From positions 1 through 45,800 of the IMG/VR virus record IMGVR_UViG_3300012356_000002: DNA of 45,800 nt, one strand, 5' to 3'. The position numbers were made by a program, and so were the translations under genes. Numbering within the stretch: the first letter of the stretch is position 1; the number at the start of each line of letters is the position of its first letter. The notes under the pieces are model-generated. The model saw only the letters and a list, made by a program, of their open reading frames with translations, was not told where the DNA came from and did no database searches. Shown piece after piece: positions 3,251-45,172 of the stretch. This stretch comes from a virus.

Positions 3251-3251
3251 T

Positions 3252-14177: not shown

Positions 14178-16791
14178 CGCCACCCAACGCATCGCGTTGA
14201 TCGGCGAAGCTCCTGGTGTTGACGAGGTGAAGTCGGGCCAACCCTTTACCGGTGCAAGTGGCAAGTTCTTGTCCATTCTCCTTGCCCGTGCAGGAACGTC
14301 GCGCGAGTCGTGCTTTGTCGGTAATGTTTGTCAAACCCGTCCCGATAGCAACGAGATAGCGGCCTTCGAGTGGGGTGGAGACGAGATTCAACACGGTATT
14401 GCCCAGCTTCGTGAAGACCTCATCGCGTACAAGCCCGACCTGATCGTTTGCCTTGGTGGCGCACCCTTGCACCTTTTCAAAACCGGCAACATTGCACCTC
14501 GCAAAACCAAACGCCAGGGAAAGCTCGTGTTCAAATGGCCGAACAGCCCTGTGTTGTGGAGAGGATCGTTTTTTCGATCCACGCTAAACGATTGCAAGGC
14601 GTTGGCCACGTTGCATCCCGCGTATGTGTTGCGCGATTACGAGGCGGCTCCTTTGCTCCAGTTAGATTTGAAGAAGGCAGTCAGTCGTGCAACATTGCCT
14701 CTCGAAAAGATTCTCCCAAAGCGTCGTTTCGACCTTAACAAAGAAACCACTATCGCAAGCCTTTACGCTCTAAAGGAAAGCAAGCAGCCTGTGGCCATAG
14801 ATATTGAGGGTGGCATAGGAACGATGTCGTGCATCTCGTTCGCCCTGTCGCCGGAGTATGCTTTTATCGTTACGTTCTTCGACAAAGCCGGCAAGCGTAC
14901 GTACGACCCGGTAACAGAAGTTAAGGTCTGGCGACTTCTAGCCACGGTGCTCGAAGACCCCACGATTCCCAAGATTCTGCAAAACTCGCTTTATGATCGT
15001 TTTGTCCTGCAATACGATTATGGCATCCGAGTGCGAGGAGTGCGTGACGACATCATGCTGAAACACTGGGAAAAGTATTGTGAGTTGGAGAAAGCTCTGG
15101 ATGTGCAGGCCTCCATATATACGGACGAACCGTGGTATAAGGGGGACAGAAAAAGCCAAGACGATAAGGAGTTTTTCTCCTACTGCTGCCGGGATTCAGC
15201 GGTGACGTACGAGATCAATGAACGCCTTCGCCCTATGATCCACGGCACGAGTCTTGAACATTATCGGTTCAACATGTCCTTGTTGATTCCGTTGCTTTAC
15301 ATGGAAATGCGTGGCATTCGATATGACGAGGCCAAAGCCCGCCTTCGGCGAAACACAGTTCGCCAGGAAATGTTTGAGGAACAAGCTCGGTTGAACGGCT
15401 TGACTGGTCGGTTCGTGCGAGGAAAGCAGTATTTGTTTGACAAGGCACGAGAAGCACTGGCCTACAAAAAAGCCCTGATAGCTTTTAACGATTTTCCTGC
15501 CCTTATTCGCAACGCGTACAAGGACAGTCTTGGCGATGCAACGAGGTTGGGCCAGTTAGTTAACGAGCCAAAGCCTTCACTTGCGACGATTGGAGAGGTA
15601 GAAGATGTGATAGGTGTATCGCTCAACGTTGGTTCGCCCAAGGTCATGGCTGGGTTCTTATACGACGAGCTTGGCTTGCCGAAACAGTACAACGTAAAAG
15701 GGCGCGACAAAGAAGGTTCGCTGACTTCCGATTACGAAGCTCTTTTGAAGCTGTCGAAACACTGCATCAGGGAAGGCGAAAAGCACAGGCTTCGCATCCT
15801 TACGCATTGCATCAACATCCGTTCGCTCACGACGCGCCAAAGGATGCTCGGTATCTCGGCGGACAAGGACGGACGAATCCGCTGCGGTTACAACATCGTA
15901 GGCACTGAAACCGGTCGAGTTTCCTCGTACGAGAGTCCCACAGGTTCTGGTTACAATCTTCAGACGATCCCGAAAGCGGACCGCGATCTTTTCGTTGCTG
16001 ATGACGGTTGCTACATCTTCCAATGTGATCTATCAGGTGCGGATGGTTGGACCGTGGCTGCATACTGTGCCATGCTTGGGGATCACACTATGCTTGATGA
16101 TTACCTTAACGGACTCAAGCCGGCCAAGATACTTACGTTGGCCCTTCATGGCGATACGGTGGACTTCTCGAACCGTGAAGCATTGCGGGAATCTTGCAGA
16201 AAGGTGGACCCAGAAGACTGGGACTACTTCGCCATGAAGCGTTTGCAACACGGTTGCTCCTACGTCGAAGGCCCACAACGCGTCAGCGATCAAATCTTCA
16301 CCGACAGCGAGGGAAAGTTCTATCTTTCCACCGCCGATTGCAAAACACTCCGTGACAAGTTCTTTTTCAAACGCTACCCCGGCATCCCAAAATGGCACAC
16401 TTGGCTGGGTGCACGCATTCGTGAACGACCCACGCTAATTGCGGCAAGTGGTCAGGTGAGGCATTTCTTCGGTCGACGTGAGGACCTCTTGCCGAAAGCA
16501 GCAGCACATGAACCACAAGCCAATACCACATATGCTACGAACCTTGCCTTGTACCGACTCTGGACCGACTCAGAAAATTGCCTTCCTGAAGGCCGTTTAC
16601 GAATCGAACCATTGCACCAGGTCCACGATGCACTTATCGGACAATTTGCCCAGTCCGATACCACTTGGGCAGTTGGCAAAATACGGGAATGGTTTAATAA
16701 TAAGCTCAACATCGCGGGGCAACAGTTGGTTATCCCGTTTGAAGGGTCTTATGGGGAAAGTTGGGGGAAGTTGGATGAGGGGGTGATATGA
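14149..16791 (+). CDS. Uracil-DNA-glycosylase-like domain fused to family A DNA polymerase
   Basis: An 880-residue fusion. Residues about 14-185 match family 4/5 uracil-DNA glycosylases: LIGEAPGVDE (17-26), GQPFTGASG, NVCQTRPDS, LIVCLGGAP and TLHPAYVLR. A 3'-5' exonuclease domain follows with AIDIEGG (D218, E220), LQNSLYDRF (N279, D283) and YCCRD (D349). The polymerase domain has TGRVSS (588), motif A FQCDLSGADGW (D627), a divergent motif B around 697-705, and VHDAL (H826, D827) as motif C. The N-terminal cysteine pair of family 4 glycosylases is missing, so the Fe-S cluster is probably lost. It is the likely replicative polymerase. Confidence 0.85.
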   Translation: MVPNLFPKSDATQRIALIGEAPGVDEVKSGQPFTGASGKFLSILLARAGTSRESCFVGNVCQTRPDSNEIAAFEWGGDEIQHGIAQLREDLIAYKPDLIVCLGGAPLHLFKTGNIAPRKTKRQGKLVFKWPNSPVLWRGSFFRSTLNDCKALATLHPAYVLRDYEAAPLLQLDLKKAVSRATLPLEKILPKRRFDLNKETTIASLYALKESKQPVAIDIEGGIGTMSCISFALSPEYAFIVTFFDKAGKRTYDPVTEVKVWRLLATVLEDPTIPKILQNSLYDRFVLQYDYGIRVRGVRDDIMLKHWEKYCELEKALDVQASIYTDEPWYKGDRKSQDDKEFFSYCCRDSAVTYEINERLRPMIHGTSLEHYRFNMSLLIPLLYMEMRGIRYDEAKARLRRNTVRQEMFEEQARLNGLTGRFVRGKQYLFDKAREALAYKKALIAFNDFPALIRNAYKDSLGDATRLGQLVNEPKPSLATIGEVEDVIGVSLNVGSPKVMAGFLYDELGLPKQYNVKGRDKEGSLTSDYEALLKLSKHCIREGEKHRLRILTHCINIRSLTTRQRMLGISADKDGRIRCGYNIVGTETGRVSSYESPTGSGYNLQTIPKADRDLFVADDGCYIFQCDLSGADGWTVAAYCAMLGDHTMLDDYLNGLKPAKILTLALHGDTVDFSNREALRESCRKVDPEDWDYFAMKRLQHGCSYVEGPQRVSDQIFTDSEGKFYLSTADCKTLRDKFFFKRYPGIPKWHTWLGARIRERPTLIAASGQVRHFFGRREDLLPKAAAHEPQANTTYATNLALYRLWTDSENCLPEGRLRIEPLHQVHDALIGQFAQSDTTWAVGKIREWFNNKLNIAGQQLVIPFEGSYGESWGKLDEGVI

Positions 16792-17276
16792 CAGTAGAAT
16801 TCATACTAAAGGGTGGGGAGAGGTGCATTGTTGACATAGAGGACGTTCCTAGGTTGTCAGAGGAAACATGGTATCTTAATAAGTGGGGTTACGCCATACA
16901 CGATAACCCGAAGAAGATGAGGTCGATGAGCAGATTCATTTTAAACTATGACGGTCCTTTAGAAGTTGACCACATTAACGGAGACAAATTAGACAACAGA
17001 AAAAAGAACCTAAGAATAGTGCCACACTCTGTAAACATTCTAGGTGGCAAAAAACACAAGGACGGAAACAATACTTACAAAGGAGTAGACTTCAAAAGAA
17101 ATTGGGGATACATAGTGTGCATAGACGGAGAAAGGTTTTCTAGATACCGCTACAAAACAGCAGAAGAAGCAAGAGACGCCAGGAAAGACTTTATAGACTA
17201 TGCACTAAAACAAAAGGAAAAAGGGGAAAAGATTGAAAAACCAAGTAGCAAAAACAGGCCACAATGGGCGCGATAG
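16788..17276 (+). CDS. HNH homing endonuclease with AP2-like tail
   Basis: A 162-residue protein inserted between the polymerase and the helicase genes and overlapping both. The HNH_3 core LEVDHINGDKLDNRKKNLRIV lies near residues 60-80, and the C-terminal part YKGVDFKRNWGYIVCIDGE then TAEEARDARKDF matches the AP2-type DNA-binding tail. The DNA is visibly A+T richer than the polymerase gene, typical of a mobile intron-less endonuclease. Many polymerase-adjacent HNH genes are known in phages. The polymerase frame is intact, so this is a free-standing insertion. Confidence 0.85.
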   Translation: MTVEFILKGGERCIVDIEDVPRLSEETWYLNKWGYAIHDNPKKMRSMSRFILNYDGPLEVDHINGDKLDNRKKNLRIVPHSVNILGGKKHKDGNNTYKGVDFKRNWGYIVCIDGERFSRYRYKTAEEARDARKDFIDYALKQKEKGEKIEKPSSKNRPQWAR

Positions 17277-18475: not shown

Positions 18476-18681
18476 AAGAAGTCTACTCGATGGGTGAGGA
18501 CGGATTTTGGAGGAAGGTTGTGGAGTTCCCGTCGTACGGCAGAGTCACGATCATACGAGACAAGCAATGGCGAGTGGTGAGCAAGTCCTTTGTGGCTACT
18601 GCGGCACAGACTGATAAAGAGCCTGCCGCCTTCGTTCCGCCGGCGAAGTCATCCGGGACGCAAGCAAGCGCGCCTGGGTGA
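18472..18681 (+). CDS. Last gene of the rightward arm, hypothetical
   Basis: A 69-residue protein from ATG 18472 (ATGA overlap with the helicase gene). It opens MKEVYSMGEDGFWRKV, has a beta-rich first half (YGRVTIIRDKQWRVVSKSF) and a low-complexity Pro/Ala/Ser tail. The last 86 bases overlap the 3' end of the giant virion-protein gene on the opposite strand, so the tail is under two-strand constraint. Function unknown. Confidence 0.5.
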   Translation: MKEVYSMGEDGFWRKVVEFPSYGRVTIIRDKQWRVVSKSFVATAAQTDKEPAAFVPPAKSSGTQASAPG

Positions 18682-21600
18682 GGGAGAGTTTGGGGTTTTG
18701 TGCCATGAGAGCATCGACGAGCGAAGCTGTTCGCATTTGGCCCATGTTTGGTCGCCCAAACCCCATTTGAGACATCATGGAGGTCTGCTGCAAGACACGT
18801 TGCACCTCTCCAATATTCGCCCCCTTCGGATACAACCCCGCTAATTGAGCAAGGCGTTCGGCCGTGGCCCTTGTGCCGTGCCTTCGTTCGCTTACTGACC
18901 CCATTTCCACCGCCAGCTGCGCTGCACTTCGTGCCATTTCTATCGGGTCGTAGGGTCCTGCTTCTTCCATTCCTTGAAGAATACGCGTGCGTGCTCCTGC
19001 CACGTCGCCTTGAGTAAGCATGTTTGCGGCATCCGAGCGAACGGTCTGCGCCTTCTTCGCGTAGTTTTCATCAATCCGTTGCTGGATGTGTTGCCTTTCG
19101 TAGTAATCTGTTGCGGCCTTTGGCTTAAAGCCTGCGAGGGCGAACGCTCTTTCGACCGGGGAGGTCTCCTCAACAAGCCGTCCAGCTTTGTCGCGCACGT
19201 TGAAATCGTCGTGAACGAGACGAGCAATCTGGCGCATGGAGACGGGGAGGGCGTTTTGGCTAGCGTCGTACCAGTTGCCTTGTGACGCGCTTCCCACAGC
19301 TTTCACGTATCCGCCAAGCATATTCGCAGCCGGTCCCATTAGGTTGGCCCACGAAAAGCCGTCATATGGCGACACGCCGAGTAAGTTGCCGAGTTGAAAC
19401 CTCGACCCAACATCGGCTGGTCCTACGTTCAAAGCACCACGCATTGCCCCGTCTGCCACGGTGTGGCCCCAATCGGAATCGTTCGATACAAGCTTCCCGA
19501 ATTGTTCCGCACCACCACGCATTAGATCCATAGCGTTGAAGCCTGGAAAGACCTGTTCCAAGGCTGCCAAACCTGCCGCCACGAGCGGCAGTCCTAGCAC
19601 GCCACCGAAAGCAAGCTGAGTGACGAACATCGTTGCACCGGCCTTCATCGCGTCCTTTTTCTCAGCAGCAGTCATCGTAGCGTCACTCATAACGCTTTTA
19701 CGAAACAGCCTAGCCATCATAGTGACGGTGTTGATGGTGTAAGAGCCAAGAGTGTACATCACTCCACCCACTCCGCTCATGGAGCCGAAACGTTGCAGGA
19801 TCATTGGGCGTGACGCCCGTCCACCGCCATACATTGTGGCGTCCGTGGCTTGAGTGGCGAAGGCTACAGCTTTGTTGTAGCGAGCTGTCTCATCGCCGCT
19901 TGCTCTCGCAAACTCATGACGGAACGCTGTGAGGAAAGCTGTCTTCCCGTTCGATGCTGTGAACCAACTATAGGCATGTCTGGCCACGGCAAGCATTTGG
20001 TAGAGAGGCTTTTTAAACAGGTCCGCCTTGCTCGCAATGTTGTCGTTTCCCATGATTGCACTGTTCTGGGCAGCAAAGTCGAGGTCGGTTTCCCCATAAA
20101 GATCAGCGGTGAACCCAGTGTCCACCGTGCGCTTCGTGATGGCTTCTTGGAGAGCCTTTTCTTCTAACGGGGTGAAGTTATCCTTTAGCACATCAAGGGT
20201 TGACTTGCGCACGGCATCGTACGCCTGACCAATCCCCATGCCGTTTTCGATCATGTAGGGCACCAGGGTAATCAACCGTTGCGTAGGCTCGACAAGAGCC
20301 GTTGCCGGATTGAAGCCTATGTAATGGAAGAACACCAGATTCTTGAGAAAGTTGAACTCCTTCCCCTCGGCGTCGGTGACAAAACGTAGGTATTGATCGA
20401 ATTTATTGCGAACGTCAGGATTCGCTCGCATGTCTGGGTTGAACAGGACGACCTGCCCAGCTTCCTTGACATAGCGTTTGGCGATCTGGTACGAAACGGC
20501 ATCCACGTAACGCACCAACCCCTCGACCATGTTGAGCTTCTCGCGTCCAGGGATAAATTCCCTTTCACGCATGTAGGGTGAAACGGTGACTTGCGAGAAG
20601 GCAGTAGCTGGTTGGAACTCTTGCTTTAGGCGGGTGATGATGTCTTGGGCTTCCGGGTGGTCGCTCGAGATGCCGGACACCACGCTGTTGAGCAAGGCAT
20701 CCAAAGCGTCCTGTTGCGCTGATGTGATTTCCTCTTGCACCAAACCTCTAAAGCGTTCTGTGCGATCCGTGCGATTGAACGTCTTCACCCACTCCTTGTC
20801 CGGCATCGCATCGACCTCTTTGAAACGCTTCGCCAGAAGCGCCTCGCTTTTGAACGCTTCATGGTGTGGCACGTCTTCGTCCTTCACCTTGAACGCTATG
20901 TGCCAGTCACGAGTGCGCACTTCGGGCAAGTAGGCCATGCGACCAGGGCGTTCTCCTGTGAACGTGTCTGCCGTCCCAAGTAGCCTGTCACCGAGTTTTT
21001 GCCAGGGTTCAAGATTATCGTTGATTTTCTCCTCCAACGTTTTCTTACCAATATCAGGCAGTGGAAGGGAGGCAAAGAACGCATCGCGCTGTGCCCTCCA
21101 CGCCGGTTGTTGCTCGATGTCGCCTGGCTCGTCAAACACCCAGTGCACAGCCTGATCGGCGAGAGGTTTAGCCTCACCATGGTAGAGGTTCTTATTAAAT
21201 GACATGATGATGCGGGTCATGCCCCACGAGACACGATCACGGTGGGCATCCCATTGGCGACGGGCAAGCAGCCTCGTCATCGCCCACGCTTGTTCTAGGC
21301 TCTTGTCGACCTTGGCTTTGTCCTCGTCACTTAGGGCTTTGTACTCGGGCGACACCTTTTCCTTGCCCTCACGAGTCAAAGGAATGTCTGCTTCCGAAAG
21401 TTGAGTGCGAACGTTTTCCACCAACCCAATAGTGCTAAATGCACGCTCTTGCGGTGATTCGTCTTTGCCCAACCAGCGCAGACGTTTCCAATCCGCTATA
21501 CCACCAAGTAACTGCTGCCATTTTGTTGGCGGTGTGTCCGGTGCCCACAGTTTCCATGTGTCGGTTTGTGCTTGACTAACCTTGCCTCGATAGTCAAAGC

Positions 21601-24600
21601 CAAGAGCCTTTACATCAACAGCGGAAGGCACTTTGTTCCGCAGTGACTCCACCAACTGGGCCATCGGCTTGATATTGCGGTCCCAAAAGCCCATCCTTTC
21701 CCCCGCAACACGTGGTGTCTCGTACGGCCTGATCCACGCAAGAGCCTGTTCCGTGAACGATTCAGCTGCCTCGGTGTAGGCTTTGGGCAAAACGCCCATC
21801 ACTGCTCCGCTCGCCTTGTCAATCTCACGGAACAAAGCGTGCATTTGCTGCATACTGGCGCTTGGCGGTGGATCGAGTGGTTTGCTCGTTGCCCTTTCAA
21901 CCAACGCCTCGAAGCCAGCCCTCATGCGTTCGGCCTTCTGCCTTGTGACCATGAGGCTGTTAAGATTATTGTAGACATCGTCAATCGCCTTCGCAATCTT
22001 CTGGCCTTGTGGGAACGTGAGTTTCACCATCTCACGAAAGCCCGACCATGCGCTTGATATGTCGCGGTAAATGGCGTTGCCAAAGTCTTGTAAAGCTGCA
22101 TCGCCGAACGTCATAGCATCGCGTATGGTTTGCACTCCCTTGCTATCCGTTGCGCCCATTGCGAGCAATGCGCCAACGTCCGCGAGCATTTCTTCGGGGT
22201 TGGTCTCGTACCGCTGCATGTTGAAACGTGAGATTTCACCCTGGAACTTGGGTGGCACGATGAGTTTCAACATGCCCTCGACGATCGGTGCACGCTCCTT
22301 GGGCGGTATAGACTCCACCCCTATCAAGGCTCGTGATCCCATACGCCTTTGCTCAAGTGTTGCATTGCCCGTTGGGTTCATGACCTCGCTGATCGTGTTG
22401 TGCCACGACTCGTGGGCGAGAGTACGTATGGAGGAAAAAATCTGTGCTTCGGGGCCTTGTTTGAGGTTTTTGAAGTTTGGGTAATCGAACAGGGCAATGA
22501 GGTACTGGGGCATGTCGGCGGTGAGGGGTTTCACCCCATACATCTTGCTTGCTCCCTCTTTCGCTGGTGCGATTGCGAGGGAAGTCTGTTGCAAAAACGG
22601 CTGAAGCCTCGACCACGGCACCATTGCCTGCTTTGCAAGGTTAGCAGCTTTCTGCACATCGTAGCCATAGTTGTAATGGAACATTGCCGTGAAGAAGTCG
22701 AACGCTCTAGCGTTGGCTTCTCCGGGTGCCATTTTTCTTAGCAAATTTGGGTCCAAACCAACCGAACGGGCAAGAGTCTGGGTCAGGCTCTCGCCAGGTA
22801 ACGGTTGAAGCTGGCGAATATTCTGCACCGACGCTGCAATCTGGTCAGGATCGTAGCCTTCTTTTGACAAGCGTTCGATGTGGTCCTTGATGAATTTCTC
22901 TGAACCAAACATGGGAAAGCCACCGCGTCGGGCTAGCTCGGCTTTGGTCTTGGCGAGAGAGAAAGAATTGGCGGTGACGGTGGTCTTGAGAGAACCATCG
23001 GGGTTGCGGAGGATGAGGTCGGGACGAGGGGTTATGTTTGCATCACCACCAAGTGGAAGCCTTGGATCGTCACCGACAAAAGCCATATTGTGCTCGCCAA
23101 AATCCCTCACCACGCCCTTCTCCCCCGTAAGCTTTCGCAGGGCTTGAGGGATGGTTTGGTCGTAGTGGAGGACCATGCCTTTTTCTTGTTCGATGGTCGG
23201 CTTCTCGACACCACGAAGGTCAGGAACAATCTGCATCGCCGCACGCTGGTCATGCCCCTCCGTCATCATTGCCGTCTTTGCATCACTCACCGCAATCTCG
23301 TCGGCACCGTTACGGATTGCGTGGTCAATGGCAGCTTTGAGGGTGATGGACTCCCATTGTGAAAGGAGAGGGTGGCCTTTGGCTTGAATAGCTGCTATCT
23401 CACGTTCTTGCTGGCCACGAATAGGACGTTCCTTGGCTCTTTCCAAGGCGTCGCGTTGCTGCTGCGCCCAATCACTCTGCAATTCGACAATGTGAAAAAC
23501 CTTCTTCCCGTTCGCTAGCGGTTCCATGTAACCGCGGAACCAGCCAAGTGTGTTAGGGGGAAAGTGATGAGAAGATGGAAAGAGAACTCCGAAGCGTTCT
23601 GCCGATTCTGGACTCAACTGCATTATATCCCGATTAGCACTTCTTTCAAAAGGAGTCCCTCTCTTAACCGGCACCACCACCGCCCCTTCCACATAGTCCC
23701 GCATCTCGGATTCGGGTTTGGGGGCGATGGATTGCCATTGAGCCTCGTTCATTGGTTGAGACAGAACCTTATTTCTTAGCCCAATATAATTATCAAGCTT
23801 TGTCAAGAACTCGTTAGTTTTAAACTCTGGACGGGTATTTAGCGTTGGACTCCACGTTCCTCTCCTATTTACTTCCTGGGTAATCTCCAACGGAAGGTTA
23901 TCGAACCATTCGTGAGTGAGTGTCACAAATTCTCGTTGCTCAGGAGAACCACCACCTTCGCCTATCGTCCTCACCTCCACCCTTGGACCGTTCTCCTTAA
24001 GCCATTCCAACGCCTGTTGTGGGTTCGCTCTCGGTTGTGCCTTGAGAAACTCCTCAAACCCCGGCAACGCCTCTAGCTCGTTTGGTGGAATCCTGTTCTT
24101 AACGTATCCCGCCATCTGCTCACCGGGCATGTCGCGCTGTGGCATGTCTCGGAGCACCTCATGCGTGCGTAGCCCCAAAAACCCCGCCTGCAAGTCTTCC
24201 GGCTTAAACGCCATAGAGTGCTCAATGTAGGAACGAGGCACCATAGCACTCGGCGAAACAAATGGCTCGAAACGCTGCTTCCTCAACTCGTCCGAGAAGT
24301 CTTGGGCGGTTTGTTGGTCCGTGAAGTTCCTTTTCCTCGGCTCGTCATGGGCTTGCCATGACACGTCCCACGATGGCACCTGATCGGTGATAGGAGTTTG
24401 GTTAACGAGTGGAGAAATAGCACGACGGTAACCCTTAATCATTCCAGGCACGTGCAAAGCTTCAAACGGGAGCACGTTGGCTGCTAAGCCGACAAGGTTT
24501 TCTGGAGCCAGTGGCCGATAAGGTTCCCCACTACGATAAGCCTCTAAAGCGTTCGCCACTTCAAACGGTGCCACCCCACCCGCTATTCCCCCAACCCTCT

Positions 24601-25009
24601 CCGCCGCCTGTCTTGCCCAATAGCGTGCCCCAGGCGAAGCAATTTGTTGCATAGAAGGTTCCATCATCCTAGCAACCTTGCCACCTAGGGCACGTCCTGT
24701 AAACGGAGAAAGGGCGAAGGCACCAGTCTGCGCCAACGTACTCTCAAGATCAGCACCTGGCTGAGTGTAGCTCTTAAGCGCCACATCTGCAAGCCCGAGT
24801 GCCTTAAACGGAATACGTTTAGCAGCGTAAAAGGCAGCCTCCGCCCCAAGACGTGGTAGAGCCTCACCAGTCCTTGCGGCTATGTCAGAGTACTGAGGCG
24901 CGACAAGGCCAGTGACGCCTCCGAATAGTTGTCCGATTGGTTTGCCAATGGGACGTAAAGCGTTCTCGATAAACTCGTTAACGGTTTGAAGAAGGGGCTG
25001 GTCGGGCAT
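18596..25009 (-). CDS. Giant polyvalent internal virion protein with HExxH motif (2137 aa)
   Basis: A 2137-residue multi-domain protein, by far the largest in the window and last in the late arm. The N-terminus has glycine/alanine-rich helices. Around residues 500-640 there are blocks (VELQSDWAQQQRDALE, YDQTIPQALRKL) known from large polyvalent phage proteins. LAHESWHNTI contains HExxH at 866-870 with an acidic NPEEMLADVG downstream, so a zinc metallopeptidase-like domain is likely. A hydrophobic segment lies near 1790-1820. By size, position and neighbours it is an ejection protein, carried in the head and injected with DNA. No lysozyme or transglycosylase motif seen. Confidence 0.75.
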   Translation of the reverse strand: MPDQPLLQTVNEFIENALRPIGKPIGQLFGGVTGLVAPQYSDIAARTGEALPRLGAEAAFYAAKRIPFKALGLADVALKSYTQPGADLESTLAQTGAFALSPFTGRALGGKVARMMEPSMQQIASPGARYWARQAAERVGGIAGGVAPFEVANALEAYRSGEPYRPLAPENLVGLAANVLPFEALHVPGMIKGYRRAISPLVNQTPITDQVPSWDVSWQAHDEPRKRNFTDQQTAQDFSDELRKQRFEPFVSPSAMVPRSYIEHSMAFKPEDLQAGFLGLRTHEVLRDMPQRDMPGEQMAGYVKNRIPPNELEALPGFEEFLKAQPRANPQQALEWLKENGPRVEVRTIGEGGGSPEQREFVTLTHEWFDNLPLEITQEVNRRGTWSPTLNTRPEFKTNEFLTKLDNYIGLRNKVLSQPMNEAQWQSIAPKPESEMRDYVEGAVVVPVKRGTPFERSANRDIMQLSPESAERFGVLFPSSHHFPPNTLGWFRGYMEPLANGKKVFHIVELQSDWAQQQRDALERAKERPIRGQQEREIAAIQAKGHPLLSQWESITLKAAIDHAIRNGADEIAVSDAKTAMMTEGHDQRAAMQIVPDLRGVEKPTIEQEKGMVLHYDQTIPQALRKLTGEKGVVRDFGEHNMAFVGDDPRLPLGGDANITPRPDLILRNPDGSLKTTVTANSFSLAKTKAELARRGGFPMFGSEKFIKDHIERLSKEGYDPDQIAASVQNIRQLQPLPGESLTQTLARSVGLDPNLLRKMAPGEANARAFDFFTAMFHYNYGYDVQKAANLAKQAMVPWSRLQPFLQQTSLAIAPAKEGASKMYGVKPLTADMPQYLIALFDYPNFKNLKQGPEAQIFSSIRTLAHESWHNTISEVMNPTGNATLEQRRMGSRALIGVESIPPKERAPIVEGMLKLIVPPKFQGEISRFNMQRYETNPEEMLADVGALLAMGATDSKGVQTIRDAMTFGDAALQDFGNAIYRDISSAWSGFREMVKLTFPQGQKIAKAIDDVYNNLNSLMVTRQKAERMRAGFEALVERATSKPLDPPPSASMQQMHALFREIDKASGAVMGVLPKAYTEAAESFTEQALAWIRPYETPRVAGERMGFWDRNIKPMAQLVESLRNKVPSAVDVKALGFDYRGKVSQAQTDTWKLWAPDTPPTKWQQLLGGIADWKRLRWLGKDESPQERAFSTIGLVENVRTQLSEADIPLTREGKEKVSPEYKALSDEDKAKVDKSLEQAWAMTRLLARRQWDAHRDRVSWGMTRIIMSFNKNLYHGEAKPLADQAVHWVFDEPGDIEQQPAWRAQRDAFFASLPLPDIGKKTLEEKINDNLEPWQKLGDRLLGTADTFTGERPGRMAYLPEVRTRDWHIAFKVKDEDVPHHEAFKSEALLAKRFKEVDAMPDKEWVKTFNRTDRTERFRGLVQEEITSAQQDALDALLNSVVSGISSDHPEAQDIITRLKQEFQPATAFSQVTVSPYMREREFIPGREKLNMVEGLVRYVDAVSYQIAKRYVKEAGQVVLFNPDMRANPDVRNKFDQYLRFVTDAEGKEFNFLKNLVFFHYIGFNPATALVEPTQRLITLVPYMIENGMGIGQAYDAVRKSTLDVLKDNFTPLEEKALQEAITKRTVDTGFTADLYGETDLDFAAQNSAIMGNDNIASKADLFKKPLYQMLAVARHAYSWFTASNGKTAFLTAFRHEFARASGDETARYNKAVAFATQATDATMYGGGRASRPMILQRFGSMSGVGGVMYTLGSYTINTVTMMARLFRKSVMSDATMTAAEKKDAMKAGATMFVTQLAFGGVLGLPLVAAGLAALEQVFPGFNAMDLMRGGAEQFGKLVSNDSDWGHTVADGAMRGALNVGPADVGSRFQLGNLLGVSPYDGFSWANLMGPAANMLGGYVKAVGSASQGNWYDASQNALPVSMRQIARLVHDDFNVRDKAGRLVEETSPVERAFALAGFKPKAATDYYERQHIQQRIDENYAKKAQTVRSDAANMLTQGDVAGARTRILQGMEEAGPYDPIEMARSAAQLAVEMGSVSERRHGTRATAERLAQLAGLYPKGANIGEVQRVLQQTSMMSQMGFGRPNMGQMRTASLVDALMAQNPKLSLTQARLLASRMTSPAERRRQALYQSVPQ

Positions 25010-33006: not shown

Positions 33007-33031
33007 GTGATGGTCATGGGGTGACTGTCAC
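33007..33031 (+). repeat. Recurrent stem-loop, copy 3
   Basis: GTGATGGTC and GACTGTCAC pair over nine positions on the plus strand, two of them G-U, around ATGGGGT. The copy overlaps the stop of the endonuclease VII-like gene. Pairs 5 and 6 differ from copy 1: pair 5 changed on both sides (G-C to U-G), keeping pairing only in the plus strand. Confidence 0.55.
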
Positions 33032-33483
33032 TCAGCGACAGAGCTTTCTGCCAAAAACTTTGCTGGCTCGTTACGCAATTTGCGTCTGACATATTCGATG
33101 GCTTTTTGAAGAACTATAGGATCTTCGTAAAGCATCCCGATCCCGGTATTACATCTCTTACATAGCAACCCAGCAATCATTCCGGTGACTTTGTCATGGT
33201 CGACACAAAGCTTTTCACCATGATAAACTCCACAAATATCACACCTTCCCTTTCTATACTCCACCATCTTGACAAAAATCTCGTGTGAAATCTTGTAGGA
33301 ATGCTTCAGATACCAGTTTCTATCACATAAACGTTCTTTGTCAGGGTTGGCTTTTCTCCACGCTTTTATGGTAGCCAACTTTTCTTCTCTGGATTTCTTA
33401 ACATTGCCGTTATTGCTGCGAATTGGATACTTCCAATTCTCCAGGTACTCCTTAGTCTCCCTGTCAATCTCTGCCTCGTCCAT
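33028..33483 (-). CDS. Recombination endonuclease VII-like HNH protein
   Basis: A 151-residue protein with the endonuclease VII fold pattern: CDIC (81-84), LCVDHDKVTG with the catalytic Asp-His-Asp (95-97), and LLCKRCN (108-111) completing the zinc site, followed by IGMLYEDPIVLQKAIEYV. The N-terminus is charged and helical. It starts inside the U-tract of the intrinsic terminator that ends the upstream transcript. It may be a resolvase for packaging or, as in many phages, a mobile homing endonuclease. Confidence 0.8.
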   Translation of the reverse strand: MDEAEIDRETKEYLENWKYPIRSNNGNVKKSREEKLATIKAWRKANPDKERLCDRNWYLKHSYKISHEIFVKMVEYRKGRCDICGVYHGEKLCVDHDKVTGMIAGLLCKRCNTGIGMLYEDPIVLQKAIEYVRRKLRNEPAKFLAESSVAE

Positions 33484-35572: not shown

Positions 35573-36154
35573 TTACTCAAAGACGGTATCGTCCTTGATC
35601 TTCTTGGAAACATAAGGTCTTTTCTTCCTTTGACTGCCTCTAGGTTCTCTAGAGACGTCATAGGGTGCAGACTTATGTCCAGGAAAATTCAACTTGGCGA
35701 ACCCTGCAAAATAATAAACAGCAGCAGAATCGTACGCCAAGGCAGCGTTAATTTCTTCTTCAAAGTATCCGAGAAAAATGTTTCTTCCGTGTACGCAAAT
35801 CTGAGCCATCCACTTTCCATGTCTATTATACCAAGTGACACCCTTGAAAGTAGAGTAAGTCCACTTCTTGGTCTTCGATGTGTTAGCATGATTCTGATGC
35901 GGAGTAACCGACCTAAGATTTCTTTCCGTGTAATTTCTAAGATCTCCGTCTATATGGTCCGTCCACATTCCATCAGGAGCACGATTAACTAGCCTGGCAA
36001 GGTGTAGATCCTCCAACGAGTGTGGACCTTTCCCAGCAAACACGTAGCCATCATCTCGACGATACCATACCGATTTCCTAAGTTCATCGAACCTATGAGC
36101 GTCAACAACCACAAATCCTCCACCTTTTAAGTCTAAGAAAGCCAAATCATTCAT
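35573..36154 (-). CDS. HNH-AP2 homing endonuclease near the capsid gene
   Basis: A 193-residue protein with an N-terminal VVVDAHRFDELRK segment, the HNH block WTDHIDGDLRNYTERNLR, and the AP2 tail YSTFKGVTWYNRHGKWMAQI to YDSAAVYYFAGFAKLNFPG. It is inserted between scaffold and capsid genes. It is strongly similar to the protein encoded at 37218-37781, so the two are recent relatives. It probably cleaves DNA of phages lacking the insertion, which spreads the gene. Confidence 0.85.
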   Translation of the reverse strand: MNDLAFLDLKGGGFVVVDAHRFDELRKSVWYRRDDGYVFAGKGPHSLEDLHLARLVNRAPDGMWTDHIDGDLRNYTERNLRSVTPHQNHANTSKTKKWTYSTFKGVTWYNRHGKWMAQICVHGRNIFLGYFEEEINAALAYDSAAVYYFAGFAKLNFPGHKSAPYDVSREPRGSQRKKRPYVSKKIKDDTVFE

Positions 36155-36966: not shown

Positions 36967-37225
36967 GTTGTGCCCTCGCTTTCTCGTTGTAGAGTGTTAT
37001 CTGTTCGTTCAAAATATCTGCAAAGCGTTGCAAACCGTTCACAAAGCCGATTGCTTTGAAGTGGACTGGAATGTTTTCGCCAGAGTCTTCCATAACTTCA
37101 CGCAACTGCTGCTGCGCCAGTTCCATTGCCTCCTGCACCAGGTGACGGTAAAACAGATTCTCCGCCAGGTTCCTGAGACCCCGAAGGCACTGCTCCGGAT
37201 CGGATGGCAGTGGTTGGTCACTCAA
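36929..37225 (-). CDS. Small head-region protein between portal and scaffold
   Basis: A 98-residue protein, called here from TTG 37225 because AGAAAGGG lies just upstream and it overlaps the HNH stop; an ATG at 37306 would add 27 residues and overlap the HNH gene further. Almost all helical (LRNLAENLFYRHLVQEAMEL, AQQQLREVMED) with a hydrophilic tail. Position suggests a role in head assembly. No family recognised. Confidence 0.5.
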   Translation of the reverse strand: MSDQPLPSDPEQCLRGLRNLAENLFYRHLVQEAMELAQQQLREVMEDSGENIPVHFKAIGFVNGLQRFADILNEQITLYNEKARAQREEAPNITQPGG

Positions 37226-37781
37226 AAACGGCCCTTTCTCTCTCGTTCTTAATGTCTCTAACACTTTTGTTTGATCCAGGAAAGTAAGGTTCTGGCAAAC
37301 CTTCAAAATTTCTCTTCGAGAAGTTTATGTAGAAATACCACGCAGCAGAATCGTAACGCTTGGCAGCATCCACTTCATTATCGAACAAACCTAACCGAAT
37401 TAACTTTCCATCTACCATTATTCTGGCGTGCCAAAGATTAAGGTGAACGTTCCAAGAAACACCTTTGTAGATCGAAGAACACCCTTTCCTTTTTCTAGCA
37501 TTAGCTAAGTTCTGAGAGTGAGTAGCAGTCCTAAGGTTTTTCTCAGTGTAGTCGTTAAGATCCCCGTCCACATGATCGGTAACGAAACCTTTAGGAGTCT
37601 TATTGATAATCTGAGCAAGACTAACAGACTTAATACCATTAACACGTCCACTCTTATCCCGAGACCACGTATAATCCCTCAAATCAGAAAGCCTATGCGC
37701 GTCAACTATCACGTAGCCACCATTAGACAGCTTGAGGTACACCTGGTTGTTCGCTAGCAGCTTCATTTCCGGTTCCTCCAT
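37218..37781 (-). CDS. HNH-AP2 homing endonuclease near the portal gene
   Basis: A 187-residue protein with VIVDAHRLSDLRDYTW, then VTDHVDGDLNDYTEKNLRTA and the AP2-type SSIYKGVSWNVHLNLWHARI to YDSAAWYFYINFSKRNFEG. It overlaps the last 59 bases of the portal gene, and an internal methionine at residue 6 would reduce the overlap by 15 bases. It is a close paralogue of the protein at 35573-36154. The element probably moved between these head-gene sites. Confidence 0.82.
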   Translation of the reverse strand: MEEPEMKLLANNQVYLKLSNGGYVIVDAHRLSDLRDYTWSRDKSGRVNGIKSVSLAQIINKTPKGFVTDHVDGDLNDYTEKNLRTATHSQNLANARKRKGCSSIYKGVSWNVHLNLWHARIMVDGKLIRLGLFDNEVDAAKRYDSAAWYFYINFSKRNFEGLPEPYFPGSNKSVRDIKNERERAVFE

Positions 37782-39636
37782 TTCCTGTTACACCTGACCT
37801 CATAGCGGTTATTATATTAGACATGGTGGCGTTGTCAAGGGCAAATCTTTCTGGGTTTTTGATCCCTCTAAGGATCATAATTTCACGAAGAATCTTTTTC
37901 GGGTCAAGGCCGAACAGAACGGCAGCGTTGGGGTTTTGTAGTAACATGGTGAGCACTTCTTCGAGAGCTTGGGCAGTGTTGTAACGCTCCGAGGGTAGCG
38001 TGCCGTCGAACAACTCGAACTCATAACTGCCGACGAGGTCTTGTTTTGTCACACCAACAAAGCGTTCCGCGTCGAGGGAGTTTTGCAGTCCCACAAGCTT
38101 GACAAATTGTTCTTCGTCGAGTCCATCTTGGAGGTTCGACAGCATTTGCCGCGCCATTGGTTCGAGGGCAATTTTGAACAGGACAGAGGCGCAGGCTTTC
38201 AGTCTGGCGGCGCTTCCGCTTGTGACATTGCGGTGTTCAGTGGCAGAGCGTCGCCCTGGCTGGAACTGCCCTAGTAACGAGTCATTGATCCCTGTTACAA
38301 TCTGCACTATCTCTTGCAAGTATTTCGTGTCCGCAATGTGGTTCGCAGTGACGTCGGTAAGCTGGAGTTGTTTGAGACTACGGTCGATGTCACCCGTGGC
38401 GGACGAGGTGAGTCGGATCACCGGACGACGTTGCTCCAGATCGTCCATGTTGACGTTCTTTGGCTGCACGATCAGCTTGTCGCCGATGACTTTGCGGACG
38501 TTGGTGATGCGCGAGTTAATGAACCAGGTGATCACGTCAGCAAGCATCCCGATCGTGTCCATGAGGCCATCACCGACATGGACGTTGTCGTCATAGACAA
38601 ACGGGGCAACTATGTAGGTGAACTCGTTGTGGAGGTAGCCGAGAGGCTCGCACTTGATCACGCGTTGGTTGTTGGCGAGCCATATGACGTATTTAACGGG
38701 GTAGTCCTCTTTGCCAAGCGGAACGCCGTCGATCTCATACTTTGCCGGGACGATTGTGCGCTGGATTTCCGTAACCAGCACGGTCTTCTTCACCTGGCCA
38801 TCCCCACGCATCCCGGAACCAGGTGAAAACGCCCCAAGGCTTTCTTCGCCAGTGTCGAAGCGGTAACCACGGATCATTTCAAAGTCCTTGTTGATGGGCT
38901 TAATGTTGTCCACGCCAGCCACAAGGCCCTCGTGCTCCCATTGTTTGAGTTGAGACATGCTGTAGAGGTCCTCTGAAGCACAGAACTCGCCTTCCTGGTA
39001 ACGGGTAAGTGGAAGACGGGTATCGGGGAAGAAACGGTAGGGCGAGATGTGGGTTAGTTTGTTACCTTGGTACGACACGACCTCCTTCATGGCTTCCGTG
39101 GTGCTTGGCGACATCAAGCGAACGCCCATGAACGATTTGCCAGGGGTGGTGGTTTGCTCACGAATCATTTGCTTCTCGGTGACCCAGTGAACCTTGATGA
39201 TGCCAAGGCCGAAACGTGCGATGTCTAGCAGCCACAGGTTTAAAAGGGCTTCAAAGCGGTTGTGGGATAGGTTCTGAGCCAGTAAGGCTTCCGCTACCTT
39301 AGCTGGCTTATCATCCTCCGCCGTGAAGCCCTCGAGTTCGAAGATACGGTCCCTTTGAGTATAGAGTGAATAGCAAAAGGCAATGAAGGTCATTACCTGG
39401 GAGTAGGGGATAGGCACGACGAGTTTCTCAGGCTCCCCCCGTTCGCGGGCCTTTACGTCGTCAGCGTCACGTGGCCGAATGTTGCGAAAGATTTCATCGT
39501 TGCGATCCCAGCGAGGGTAATAGCCCTGCATTTTGCGACGTGAGATCATCACGAGAGCACGGCAGTCCGTGAGCATTTGCGTCTGGAACTTCGATTGTTC
39601 CTCGTTCGAGAGGTCCTTGTAAATGGAATCGTCCAT
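37723..39636 (-). CDS. Portal protein
   Basis: A 637-residue protein read from ATG 39636; a longer frame to 39690 lies within the previous gene. It has the layout of podovirus-type portal proteins: KLVVPIPYSQVMTFIAFCYS, a central FGLGIIKVHWVTEKQMI, RFFPDTRLPLTRYQEGEFC and the stem region GMLADVITWFINSRITNVRK, with a late SLLGQFQPGRRSATEHRNVT block. The C-terminus is Gly/Asn-rich and disordered. The next genes encode scaffold and capsid, which supports the call. Confidence 0.82.
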   Translation of the reverse strand: MDDSIYKDLSNEEQSKFQTQMLTDCRALVMISRRKMQGYYPRWDRNDEIFRNIRPRDADDVKARERGEPEKLVVPIPYSQVMTFIAFCYSLYTQRDRIFELEGFTAEDDKPAKVAEALLAQNLSHNRFEALLNLWLLDIARFGLGIIKVHWVTEKQMIREQTTTPGKSFMGVRLMSPSTTEAMKEVVSYQGNKLTHISPYRFFPDTRLPLTRYQEGEFCASEDLYSMSQLKQWEHEGLVAGVDNIKPINKDFEMIRGYRFDTGEESLGAFSPGSGMRGDGQVKKTVLVTEIQRTIVPAKYEIDGVPLGKEDYPVKYVIWLANNQRVIKCEPLGYLHNEFTYIVAPFVYDDNVHVGDGLMDTIGMLADVITWFINSRITNVRKVIGDKLIVQPKNVNMDDLEQRRPVIRLTSSATGDIDRSLKQLQLTDVTANHIADTKYLQEIVQIVTGINDSLLGQFQPGRRSATEHRNVTSGSAARLKACASVLFKIALEPMARQMLSNLQDGLDEEQFVKLVGLQNSLDAERFVGVTKQDLVGSYEFELFDGTLPSERYNTAQALEEVLTMLLQNPNAAVLFGLDPKKILREIMILRGIKNPERFALDNATMSNIITAMRSGVTGNGGTGNEAASEQPGVPQAV

Positions 39637-39637
39637 G

Positions 39638-39844
39638 TTACGTCTGGGTGGACTCGAACAGGGCCTTCTTGCGCTTTGCAAGGTCTTCACTCACGTAGTC
39701 TGCAAGGCTTTTCTCGCTCGCTTTTTGCAACGCGTTGATAGCGTCATCTATGGTTGCGCCTCGACTCTGCAAAAAGGCCATCGCCGCGTCTATGCCGAAC
39801 CTTGCGGCAAAGTTCAGGATCGCTGCTAGGAGGACTTCGCTCAT
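39638..39844 (-). CDS. Small hypothetical protein before the portal gene
   Basis: A 68-residue, mostly helical protein (MSEVLLAAILNFAARFGIDA, then DDAINALQKASEKSLADYV). The N-terminal helix is moderately hydrophobic, but too short and polar to be a sure membrane anchor. It overlaps the lipoprotein gene by ATGA and ends one base before the portal start. Could be a small terminase or a lysis accessory; neither is supported by a motif. Confidence 0.5.
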   Translation of the reverse strand: MSEVLLAAILNFAARFGIDAAMAFLQSRGATIDDAINALQKASEKSLADYVSEDLAKRKKALFESTQT

Positions 39845-40266
39845 AATGCGGTAGCTTTCACAAGCTGGGTTTGCAGGCTTTGGGCCTGTGGTTTGGTTAG
39901 TAGCGGTACGATGAAGTCTACAAAGTTCTTCGCCGCCTGCTTCGCAGCATCGAACGCGGTAGCGTAGTCACGTGAGTCACCGCTAGCTTTGTAGGCCACA
40001 AGGGCGTCGTGGGCGACCTTGGAAGCTCGCTGGTAGGCCAGGTGAGCCTCTGCGGCTTTTGCTGCAACATCCTGTGGCACAAGTCCGTCGTTGTAAAGCT
40101 GGGCGTATTGTTGAGAGGCCGAGTCCACGACCTTGGTCAAGGTCACTGCACCAATGTAAAGTCCCTGGCAAGCTGTGAGCAGGGTTAGTGCAACCAGGAC
40201 TGTGACTTGGACTCCAAGTCGTCGAATAGCTTTTGCTGTTCTTGGAGCAGGGTGAGTAGACTGCAT
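39841..40266 (-). CDS. Phage lipoprotein, outer-membrane spanin candidate
   Basis: A 141-residue protein read from ATG 40266. It has a basic start (MQSTHPAPRTAKAIRR) and a hydrophobic signal ending in the lipobox LTAC with Cys33 as the lipid site. Then a long helical periplasmic part follows (DSASQQYAQLYNDGLVPQDV, YQRASKVAHDALVAYKASG). Its start lies inside the preceding 63-residue gene in another frame, as in Rz/Rz1 pairs. Usual Rz1 proteins are shorter and the partner here has no transmembrane segment, so the spanin assignment is only a possibility. Confidence 0.6.
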   Translation of the reverse strand: MQSTHPAPRTAKAIRRLGVQVTVLVALTLLTACQGLYIGAVTLTKVVDSASQQYAQLYNDGLVPQDVAAKAAEAHLAYQRASKVAHDALVAYKASGDSRDYATAFDAAKQAAKNFVDFIVPLLTKPQAQSLQTQLVKATAL

Positions 40267-40376
40267 AACAAAATCGCATCGGAGTAGGAAAGGCGGACTT
40301 CTGTGCCTCGTTCCTGACCACTCAACTGATCCATGATTTTCCCGATTATACGCTTTGAGGCTTCCTGAATTGCCAT
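40185..40376 (-). CDS. Small helical protein overlapping the lipoprotein gene
   Basis: A 63-residue protein coupled to the receiver-domain gene by a one-base overlap (TAATG). It is amphipathic and helical (KRIIGKIMDQLSGQERGTEV, then YSDAILLCSLLTLLQEQQKL) with no full transmembrane span. Its last third shares DNA with the start of the lipoprotein in another frame. A possible lysis-control or spanin-related role rests on context only. Confidence 0.5.
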   Translation of the reverse strand: MAIQEASKRIIGKIMDQLSGQERGTEVRLSYSDAILLCSLLTLLQEQQKLFDDLESKSQSWLH

Positions 40377-41128
40377 TAGTCATTGTAGTTTAGGCGATGT
40401 TTGCGGAGGATTTCGTGAGCCACGGAGACGGAGAATGGCTTCATTAGCACACCGATGTATCCTAGCCCTTGTGCCTTGGTAAGCATGTCGGGAAAGCCAG
40501 AGGTGATGATGACCATGCAGTTGCGGGAGACCTCTTTGATCTTTCGTACGATCTCAACCCCGGAGCCATCGGGCATTTGTAGGTCTATCAGGGCAAGGTG
40601 GAAGAAGTATTTATTCACGACTTCGAGGGCATCCTTGATCTTGGTAACAGCGGTGATCACGGTGTTTTGAACCTGGAAAAGTTGAGTTAGCAGTTCTAGA
40701 ATGTCCTCGTTGTCTTCGACGATTAGTATCTCAGCCTTCACCGGGTGAAGTTGCTCGCGTCTTGCTCGGGTCTTGTTGAGTTCCAAAGCTACGGCAATAG
40801 AGTGGGCTAACCGGCCTATGTAGCTTTTCAAGATGTAGTCTGCCGCGCCCATACGGAGAGTTTTTGCGGCAACCCTGTCATCGAGCGTACCGGTGACGTA
40901 GATGAGGGGAGTGTGTTTCGCAAGCCGGTCACGGATTGTGAGGGCTTCGTAGTCAACGAAGCCAGGCACGGAGAAATCGGCAAGGATAACGTCATTGGTA
41001 AAAAGGGTTAGCTCGCTTTCGTAGGATGCTCGGTCACGGACCGTGGAAAGGTTCGCCAGATCACGAAGCTCGTGGCGAATGATCGTGGCATCGTTTTCAT
41101 CGTCTTCAAGCAGGAGGACTCGCCACAT
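40376..41128 (-). CDS. Tandem response-regulator receiver (REC-REC) protein
   Basis: A 250-residue protein consisting of two receiver domains and no output domain. REC1 (about 1-115): acidic pocket E8/D9, phosphoacceptor D51 (ILADFSVPG), T79 (YVTG) and K101 (ILKS). REC2 (about 132-250): E138/D139, D182 (LIDLQMPDG), S210 (ITSG) and K230 (MKPF). Both sets of key residues are complete, so both could be phosphorylated. A phage virion/lysis region is an unusual place for such a protein. No histidine kinase is encoded in the window, so it may intercept a host phosphorelay. Confidence in domains is high; role unknown. Confidence 0.85.
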   Translation of the reverse strand: MWRVLLLEDDENDATIIRHELRDLANLSTVRDRASYESELTLFTNDVILADFSVPGFVDYEALTIRDRLAKHTPLIYVTGTLDDRVAAKTLRMGAADYILKSYIGRLAHSIAVALELNKTRARREQLHPVKAEILIVEDNEDILELLTQLFQVQNTVITAVTKIKDALEVVNKYFFHLALIDLQMPDGSGVEIVRKIKEVSRNCMVIITSGFPDMLTKAQGLGYIGVLMKPFSVSVAHEILRKHRLNYND

Positions 41129-41393
41129 TGGGCTTTTCGCGTTTTTCGAGTTCAGAGACCTTTTTGCTCACGAAAGCAAGCCAGTTCGTGAAGCCAACCC
41201 AGACACAGGTGGCCCAAAAGATTTGCACGTCGAGAACAGTAATGTTGGCTTCGTGAGACTTCCATTCTTTGAGGGTGATCACGACAATGCCCGCCACGGC
41301 TGCACCGACGTAGAGGAAGCCGTGAAGGATAACGGGGCTGTAGTACTTTGCCCATGCAGCCTGGCGTTTGAAGAATAGTGCTGTGTCGCTCAC
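41106..41393 (-). CDS. Two-helix membrane protein, holin candidate
   Basis: A 95-residue protein starting at GTG 41393 (GTGA overlap). Two transmembrane segments (VILHGFLYVGAAVAGIVVIT and IFWATCVWVGFTNWLAFV) are separated by a short polar loop (LKEWKSHEANIT), followed by a charged C-terminal tail (KKVSELEKREKP). This is the size and shape of class II holins. It precedes the receiver-domain and lipoprotein genes, so a lysis function is plausible but not proven. Confidence 0.6.
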   Translation of the reverse strand: MSDTALFFKRQAAWAKYYSPVILHGFLYVGAAVAGIVVITLKEWKSHEANITVLDVQIFWATCVWVGFTNWLAFVSKKVSELEKREKPNVASPPA

Positions 41394-41581
41394 GAAAGAA
41401 TGCAGAAGACGGCGATGGCCGCAACGATTATTATGATGAGAAGAATCACGCCAGGGTGTTTGTCAAGCCAGGTAGAGGCTTGTTTTAGTTTGTTAACGAG
41501 GAACATAGAAGAAGCGCAAGCAGTGGCCACGGACACAAACGAAGCGTTTGTGAGAGTGTGGTGAGCCATAGACACGTTCAT
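41390..41581 (-). CDS. Small single-span membrane protein
   Basis: A 63-residue protein; the internal methionine at 41569 (MAHHTLTNASF) is an alternative start. It has a weakly hydrophobic N-terminal third and one strong transmembrane helix at the C-terminus (VILLIIIIVAAIAVFCILS). It overlaps the 49-residue frame upstream and is coupled to the following holin-like gene. It may take part in lysis or be a membrane anchor. Unrecognised. Confidence 0.5.
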   Translation of the reverse strand: MNVSMAHHTLTNASFVSVATACASSMFLVNKLKQASTWLDKHPGVILLIIIIVAAIAVFCILS

Positions 41582-43705: not shown

Positions 43706-45172
43706 CTATATGGTTAAGGTTACCTTGCCAAGATCAAGCAAGGGCTTGTCGATGACTTCGTCTCCGATTGGCCTGTTGTAATTTTTCTCATCCACCCAAC
43801 ATGGTTCGTCAAGCACGAGGCGGTAGAGGTTCTCCATCGCATGGTCGTCCTTGTCAACGGGCTTGTTCTTTTCCTCGTTCCAATACCAACGCTGGATTTC
43901 CCACAGTGTGCGTCTGGCGGTCTCGGTGAAGAAAAGTATGGGAGGGTTGTGAGAGAGAAGTTCCTTGACACGGGAAATGCCGCGCATGGGGTCCTTCACA
44001 CCTTTCTCGACCGGGAAGCCGTTCATGGCGAAGTCGTCGGACCATGATTGTTCGGTAGTCTGGACTTCGATGAAGGCGAGAGGGTCGGCAATGCCGCGAA
44101 TGAGATTGCGGCCATTGGTGACTTTTTTCATCATCTTGCACAAGTCGCCCACGTTCCCGTGCTCGAAAATGTCGTTGAAGATGTAGAAGCGTCCACGTGG
44201 GTCAACGGCGAGAAAGAGCACGCAGTGGGGGACTTTAGGATGGGGGTCAATGGCGTAGTAGATTGGCCACGACTTCGGGGGAGAGTCTGGCGCGCTCCAA
44301 CCGGTTGGTAGCTGCTGAAGCACGTGCTTGTCATAGCGGAACTCTTTGTAGACCAACCCAGCCAAATGTAGTGGTTTGCCCCATAGACGGCATTCCTTTT
44401 CCTCGTCCGTTAACGAGTCCTCGAAAATCTTTATCGCTTCGCTTGAGATGTAGGGGTTGTCGTAGATCGAGCACTCTACTTTGAAAGCAGACCTCTCAAA
44501 CGTCCCGCCTGGTAGAAAAGCATCAGTAATCCAAGGCTCAGTGAGAGCCGTGAGCGTGAACCAAGCGTGGCCATCGCGGTCAATAAGGCCCCGTGAAGCA
44601 CCCACCCATAGACCCTCCGGGCATGGTTCGTCAATGTGGATGAAGTCGTAGTCGGTGCTTTCCACACTTTGTGGATCGTTGAGCCAGGAACGAACGGTTG
44701 CGAACCGGAGCACCGAGCCATTGCTGCACTCCACAATGTAGATTTTGCCCTCATGGTTGCGTGTTGTGCGCTTGATGAAACCATCGCGTGGGAGAAACTT
44801 CCAAAGTTTACCCTCATCGCCACGGTTGGACGTGTAGACTTCATCAATCTTTTCCCAGTTTGTTCCTACGACTAACCCCTTGACGGGGCGTTGGGGAATG
44901 CCGTCCCGTCGTGCTGGATCGTCCTCTGACATCCAAGCACGTTCGCCACGGAGCCATGCACAGTCTTCGGCACAGCCTGAGGTGCTTTTGCCCGAACGGT
45001 TGCCGCCAAAGATGGCTTTGCGGCGAACGATGGAACGGTGAAATGCATCTTGCTTGGGGTGTGGCTTATAGTAAAGTAAACCGTCATTACGTATCGCTGC
45101 TATCTTCTCCCTAAGAAGTTTTACCTTCTTACGACGTATTAAAGACAGCTCGATGTTGTCCGTGGCGATCAT
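43706..45172 (-). CDS. Terminase large subunit
   Basis: A 488-residue protein. The ATPase half has Walker A GGNRSGKS near residues 55-62 and Walker B FIHIDEP near 180. The nuclease half has YYAIDPHPKVPHCVLFLAVDPRG and IADPLAFIE as likely RNase H-type acidic motifs. The start overlaps the DnaQ-like gene by ATGA. It packages DNA into the procapsid with the portal. The small subunit was not identified. Confidence 0.85.
   Translation of the reverse strand: MIATDNIELSLIRRKKVKLLREKIAAIRNDGLLYYKPHPKQDAFHRSIVRRKAIFGGNRSGKSTSGCAEDCAWLRGERAWMSEDDPARRDGIPQRPVKGLVVGTNWEKIDEVYTSNRGDEGKLWKFLPRDGFIKRTTRNHEGKIYIVECSNGSVLRFATVRSWLNDPQSVESTDYDFIHIDEPCPEGLWVGASRGLIDRDGHAWFTLTALTEPWITDAFLPGGTFERSAFKVECSIYDNPYISSEAIKIFEDSLTDEEKECRLWGKPLHLAGLVYKEFRYDKHVLQQLPTGWSAPDSPPKSWPIYYAIDPHPKVPHCVLFLAVDPRGRFYIFNDIFEHGNVGDLCKMMKKVTNGRNLIRGIADPLAFIEVQTTEQSWSDDFAMNGFPVEKGVKDPMRGISRVKELLSHNPPILFFTETARRTLWEIQRWYWNEEKNKPVDKDDHAMENLYRLVLDEPCWVDEKNYNRPIGDEVIDKPLLDLGKVTLTI

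Follow-up and report, generated by a model that had tools for sequence, protein, structure and literature searches.

Inhibitors of host kinases and the occasional signalling gene are known from phages. In bacteria, stand-alone receivers (Spo0F, Osp, FixT and MrrA) take part in phosphorelays or bind kinases. What, then, might a phage do with a protein that consists of two receiver (REC) domains and has no output domain? The question is raised by a gene, here called REC-REC, in the window, that is, the whole 45,800-nucleotide stretch of DNA analysed. The window is a virus record, carrying a terminase, an SU10-like portal and capsid, and PolA, and the carrier of REC-REC is a soil phage.

Domains and gene neighbourhood of REC-REC

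The initial annotation had read two receiver domains in the 250-residue product, with D51, D182, K101 and K230 among their catalytic residues. When each half was scanned separately with Response_reg (PF00072), both exceeded the curated cut-off of 30.2 bits on their own (Table 1), and the four residues aligned with receiver active-site positions. All five such positions are intact in each receiver: E8/D9, D51, T79 and K101 in the N-terminal one (N-REC), in which the proline after the lysine is absent, and E138/D139, D182, S210 and K230-P231 in the C-terminal one (C-REC). The reading that DNA-binding, enzymatic and kinase domains are lacking also stood: the C-REC extends to the C-terminus, no further Pfam domain above cut-off was found, whether output domain or histidine kinase core, and neither HATPase_c nor HPt was matched anywhere in the 45.8-kb record. 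Since the record has no kinase or HPt protein of its own, any phosphodonor would need to come from the host. An AlphaFold model from a three-row alignment showed two receiver-like units at low confidence (pLDDT 61, pTM 0.42), and Foldseek with this low-confidence model retrieved receivers, the top matches being the tandem-receiver proteins PleD and 3luf.

Table 1. Features of the REC-REC locus in the window (positions refer to the whole stretch).
Feature	Coordinates	Strand	Evidence or remark
REC-REC protein, 250 aa, without output domain	40376..41128	-	Pfam Response_reg, two stretches, E=3.1e-28
N-REC, residues 3-107	40808..41122	-	Pfam 32.0 bits alone
C-REC, residues 133-237	40418..40732	-	Pfam 72.0 bits alone
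Linker HPVKAEI, residues 128-134	40727..40747	-	Alignments; HPV/HPA partly retained in single-REC relatives
Conserved C-terminal tail	40376..40417	-	Alignment: window ..EILRKHRLNYND; L003 ..MLIVHRLPVPD; L152 ..EILWKHRLPSAN
95-aa membrane protein	41106..41393	-	Holin-like by size and position; one hydrophobic segment
63-aa single-TM protein	41390..41581	-	
63-aa protein directly downstream of REC-REC	40185..40376	-	Weak similarity to L003:6039-6242
Lipoprotein, 141 aa from ATG at 40266	39841..40266	-	Conserved site marker; 49-54% identity to L003, L025 and L096 counterparts
68-aa protein ahead of portal	39638..39844	-	54-63% identity to L003 and L025 counterparts
Large terminase	43706..45172	-	PHROG phrog_2, 2.8e-12; bounds one side of the receiver site
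Portal, SU10-like	37723..39690	-	Pfam SU10_portal, 1.6e-17; in-frame ATG at 39636; anchors the receiver site

REC-REC is encoded on the packaging and structural strand, between terminase and portal, a position that points to late expression. The gene order is terminase, a 92-aa protein, a fibre-like and a ConA-like protein (both working labels only), the 63-aa TM protein, the 95-aa membrane protein, REC-REC, the second 63-aa protein, the lipoprotein, the 68-aa protein and the portal, the last being 85-87% identical to the portal of the related contig L003. Coupling of the receiver gene to small membrane and lipoprotein genes, as first annotated, is borne out by its overlaps, which measure 23 nt at the upstream holin-like gene and 1 nt at the downstream 63-aa gene; lying between a membrane gene and a lipoprotein gene, the receiver is probably co-translated with them. 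The lipoprotein start is nested, in another frame, in the downstream 63-aa ORF; this is reminiscent of nested Rz/Rz1 spanin genes, but the product of that ORF has no TM segment. The 95-aa membrane protein is the positional counterpart of the small membrane proteins in L003, L025 and L152. Because no holin, spanin or endolysin family in Pfam or PHROG was matched near REC-REC, whose neighbours include small membrane proteins and a lipoprotein, "holin-like" and "lysis" are used here as labels from size and position.

Several other genes of the window were recorded. An 880-aa DNA polymerase A (14149-16791) has a fused N-terminal domain of the uracil-DNA-glycosylase superfamily (Pfam UDG 1.7e-20, DNA_pol_A 1.1e-16), and a 2137-aa protein on the structural strand (18596-25009), without Pfam match, may be a large protein of the ejection or polyvalent kind. 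Several genes of HNH/AP2-like or endonuclease VII-like type are dispersed among the structural genes (35573-36154, 37218-37781, 16788-17276 and 33028-33483), the last alone having a family match (PHROG endonuclease VII).

Conservation of the gene and of its site

A full-length orthologue of 250 aa, of the kind that the initial annotation had suggested looking for, was found at the equivalent site of L096 (L096:7515-8267), with 63% identity overall (62% in the N half and 65% in the C half). L096 is MNJR01000086.1, an 8.8-kb phage contig binned in the Acidobacteria MAG 13_1_20CM_3_53_8, probably through binning contamination; it is the sole bacterial-genome match close to the window terminase and, being a phage contig, a weak pointer to the host. 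Between the two phages the core genes are 67% (terminase) and 69% (exonuclease) identical, while the flanking genes show 21% (63-aa neighbour), 26% (holin-like neighbour) and 52% (lipoprotein), and for REC-REC itself dN is 0.28, dS having reached saturation (about 2). REC-REC is therefore held like a core gene amid a fast-changing neighbourhood, and the substitution pattern indicates that purifying selection has been strong in both of these diverged phages. Such constraint speaks against a chance ORF or one in decay, readings that the orthologue and the substitution pattern together rule out. Host contamination of the record was likewise rejected, because several records, drawn from different samples, have the receiver gene in this terminase-portal interval.

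Relatives were surveyed with PF00072 over 84 records and four further ones, and with a local profile at portal- and terminase-bearing loci. Six receiver-bearing genotypes, in four architectures, were found at the site between the holin-like gene and the lipoprotein or portal; several of the records are fragments, and the viral-contig scans used short peptide patterns, which distant members may escape. This site is a receiver hot spot. The tandem form is present in the window (identical in L002) and in L096. Single receivers are encoded in L003 (144 aa; portal 85% and terminase 79% identical to the window's) and in L081 (165 aa; terminase 34%). L152 (portal 75%) has two separate single-receiver genes on either side of the lipoprotein gene (L152:1896-2336 and 2906-3355), one after the membrane gene and the other overlapping the portal start. 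In L025, L026 and L093 (terminase 53%), a 487-aa REC-HK-REC protein is encoded (L025:6909-8372, L026:16227-17690 and L093:144-1607), with HATPase_c between the two receivers (2.1e-24) and, in the L025 type, an H-box region that reads HDLNNLL and leaves Pfam HisKA unmatched; the L025 gene overlaps both the membrane gene and the lipoprotein gene by 4 nt. The absence of a kinase, stated earlier for the window, holds for that record but does not extend to the site in these three relatives, and a pure phosphate sink therefore cannot describe the whole locus.

The catalytic positions (acidic pair, Asp, Thr/Ser and Lys) are kept in 10/10 receivers of the six genotypes, many pairs of which are only 20-40% identical. 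The terminase-portal interval is variable in the clade and receiver presence is patchy; where present, a receiver always follows directly after the small membrane gene, in L003 with a gap of 275 nt. In most relatives of the wider clade a receiver is absent from the site, where small membrane and lipoprotein genes occur nonetheless, which implies a function dispensable in many hosts. Among named phages, a tblastn search of 50,697 phage records with REC-REC as the query gave no place covering 80% of it, and neither the cassette DNA nor the lipoprotein had a match; the hits labelled as Listeria, Acinetobacter and Salmonella phages are presumably bacterial sequence within those records. Separately, an unrelated phage-like contig encodes a receiver followed by an apparent HD-GYP domain, recognised by eye, in a gene that overlaps one for a TM protein (L149:7980-8936).

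Lineages of the two receivers

In the receiver tree, the C-RECs of the window and L096, the L003 receiver and the first L152 receiver form one clade (support 100/99), whose members have a common short C-terminal tail (HRLN/HRLP). The nearest matches to the C-REC in 199 genomes of the phylum of the Acidobacteria MAG, at about 30-36% identity, are mostly proteins of 450-500 aa, a length that we take to be that of NtrC-type regulators. Its PDB matches include Spo0F and NtrC-family regulators, and Spo0F, a phosphorelay intermediate, matches in both sequence and fold search. The C-REC thus placed in its own clade represents a phage receiver family of its own, distantly like the receivers of Spo0F and NtrC. 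The nearest bacterial matches of the N-REC (36-48% identity) are N-terminal receivers of sensor kinases (9/9 checked by Pfam; clade support 96/98), and the N-REC is of the sensor-kinase input type.

The two halves lie in different parts of the tree and are of different receiver lineages, so that duplication of one receiver is ruled out. The N-REC of the L025 kinase groups with those of the window and L096 in the best tree, a grouping that is not significant (91/64), and the C-RECs of the window and L025 are not close and form separate lineages. Simple deletion of the kinase from an L025-like ancestor was rejected on these two grounds, and REC-REC is better read as a probable fusion or swap, in which a kinase-type input receiver was joined to a resident phage receiver. 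In addition, the pairing of L003 with L152 in the receiver tree conflicts with the terminase similarities, suggesting recombination at the cassette.

Possible roles and known systems

Two roles had been put forward at first, a phosphate sink or decoy and a timer of lysis; both are inferred, and nothing in the present data separates them. The phages with receivers at this site seem to tap or tamper with host phosphorelay signalling late in infection, and the reading that we tentatively put first, at a confidence just short of probable, is that REC-REC is a late-operon signalling adaptor that takes host phosphoryl groups, binds partners and diverts or blocks a host phosphorelay. Host histidine kinases or HPt proteins would donate phosphoryl groups to both receivers, the N-REC being of a type that serves as input to sensor kinases, after which the protein would act on its partners through protein-protein contact, the most likely outcome being a host phosphorelay diverted or blocked late in infection. 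The relatives may do the same job with one receiver, with two separate receivers, or with a REC-kinase-REC protein that would add a kinase or phosphatase of its own. Phosphotransfer, the host partner and the direction of the effect are all parts that we infer.

The main rival to this adaptor reading, a real possibility though on the unlikely side, is that REC-REC is a phosphorylation-gated partner of the adjacent membrane protein or lipoprotein, through which the host signalling state advances or delays lysis. In 6/6 genotypes the gene immediately upstream of the receiver gene encodes a small membrane protein, and the two genes overlap in the window, in L025, L096 and L152 (4 nt each) and in L081; such adjacency hints at a local target instead of a host-wide one and keeps lysis timing through the membrane and lipoprotein module alive. 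However, the lysis label is positional, as the membrane proteins have no holin family match and no endolysin is near; the membrane proteins of the window and L025 share only 15% identity despite the high constraint on REC-REC, which makes tight co-evolution look unlikely; and the second L152 receiver stands apart, before the portal. A host phosphorelay target is slightly favoured on two grounds: the constraint on REC-REC is not shared by its would-be membrane partner, which diverges freely, and one of the L152 receivers is encoded at a distance from the membrane gene.

That the protein instead inhibits a kinase by binding it, without accepting phosphate, seems improbable to us. Stand-alone bacterial receivers such as Osp and FixT can block kinases in this way (PMC9430884), and docking of a receiver to a kinase is possible without phosphorylation; however, the active site is complete in every site receiver, whereas nothing would stop a pure binder from losing it. 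The active site could, for its part, be kept for structure rather than for phosphorylation. We consider it very unlikely that REC-REC is part of the virion or an ordinary cargo gene with no regulatory effect: the gene does lie among late structural genes in a variable interval, but for a structural part it would be hard to explain why the catalytic residues are conserved and why a kinase variant occupies this site in relatives. Least tenable, and as a case of decay already largely refuted, is a kinase-deleted remnant of the phage REC-HK-REC protein on its way out, which the kinase at the same site in three relatives and the N-REC grouping would favour, but which conflicts with the different C-REC lineage, the strong selection in both diverged phages and the lack of any sign of decay, fusion or swapping of domains fitting better than deletion.

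On a wider scale, and as a rather unlikely proposal based on six genotypes, a small number, this soil-phage lineage may possess a swappable two-component module wired to the late membrane/lysis cassette. The forms with one receiver, two separate receivers, tandem receivers or REC-kinase-REC would each read or rewrite the host phosphorelay state, which would decide the timing or manner of lysis. If the receiver proteins are phosphorylated by the host, they would provide a direct link from host signalling to the late stage of phage infection, and the four forms are a natural series that makes this link testable.

In the open-access literature, to which the search was limited, no description of a comparable phage receiver, response-regulator or histidine-kinase locus was found. 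Relative to the literature found, what is new is a phage locus that keeps receivers under selection, in several layouts and in a constant position next to late membrane genes, one of these layouts having its own kinase. The nearest precedents that the search gave are the kinase-blocking receivers Osp and FixT, phoR as carried by soil phages (PMC10987575), PIT4 and the cREC domains. The protein PIT4 of Pseudomonas aeruginosa phage LSL4 is, like the adaptor proposed here, a phage protein acting on host two-component systems; it differs in that it is described as the product of an early gene that binds histidine kinase domains, with no receiver architecture described for it (PMC10714779). The cREC domains of jumbo phages also have a receiver-like fold, but they are divergent, tied to NAD/ADP-ribose enzymes and never part of histidine-kinase systems, whereas the receivers of the window are canonical (PMC7824862).

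Among the other known systems, PleD and 3luf (REC-REC-GGDEF) have tandem receivers and were the top structural matches of the low-confidence model, but REC-REC has no GGDEF or other output domain. The hybrid kinases of the REC-HK-REC type have N-terminal input receivers to which the N-REC is akin, and a complete one occupies the site in three relatives, whereas the window protein has no kinase core and a C-REC of another lineage. With Spo0F, Osp, FixT and MrrA, REC-REC has in common a receiver fold, predicted in its case, an intact phosphoacceptor pocket and the lack of an output domain; it differs from them in being phage-encoded, in joining two receivers of different lineages, and in its co-location with a membrane protein and lipoprotein cassette between terminase and portal.
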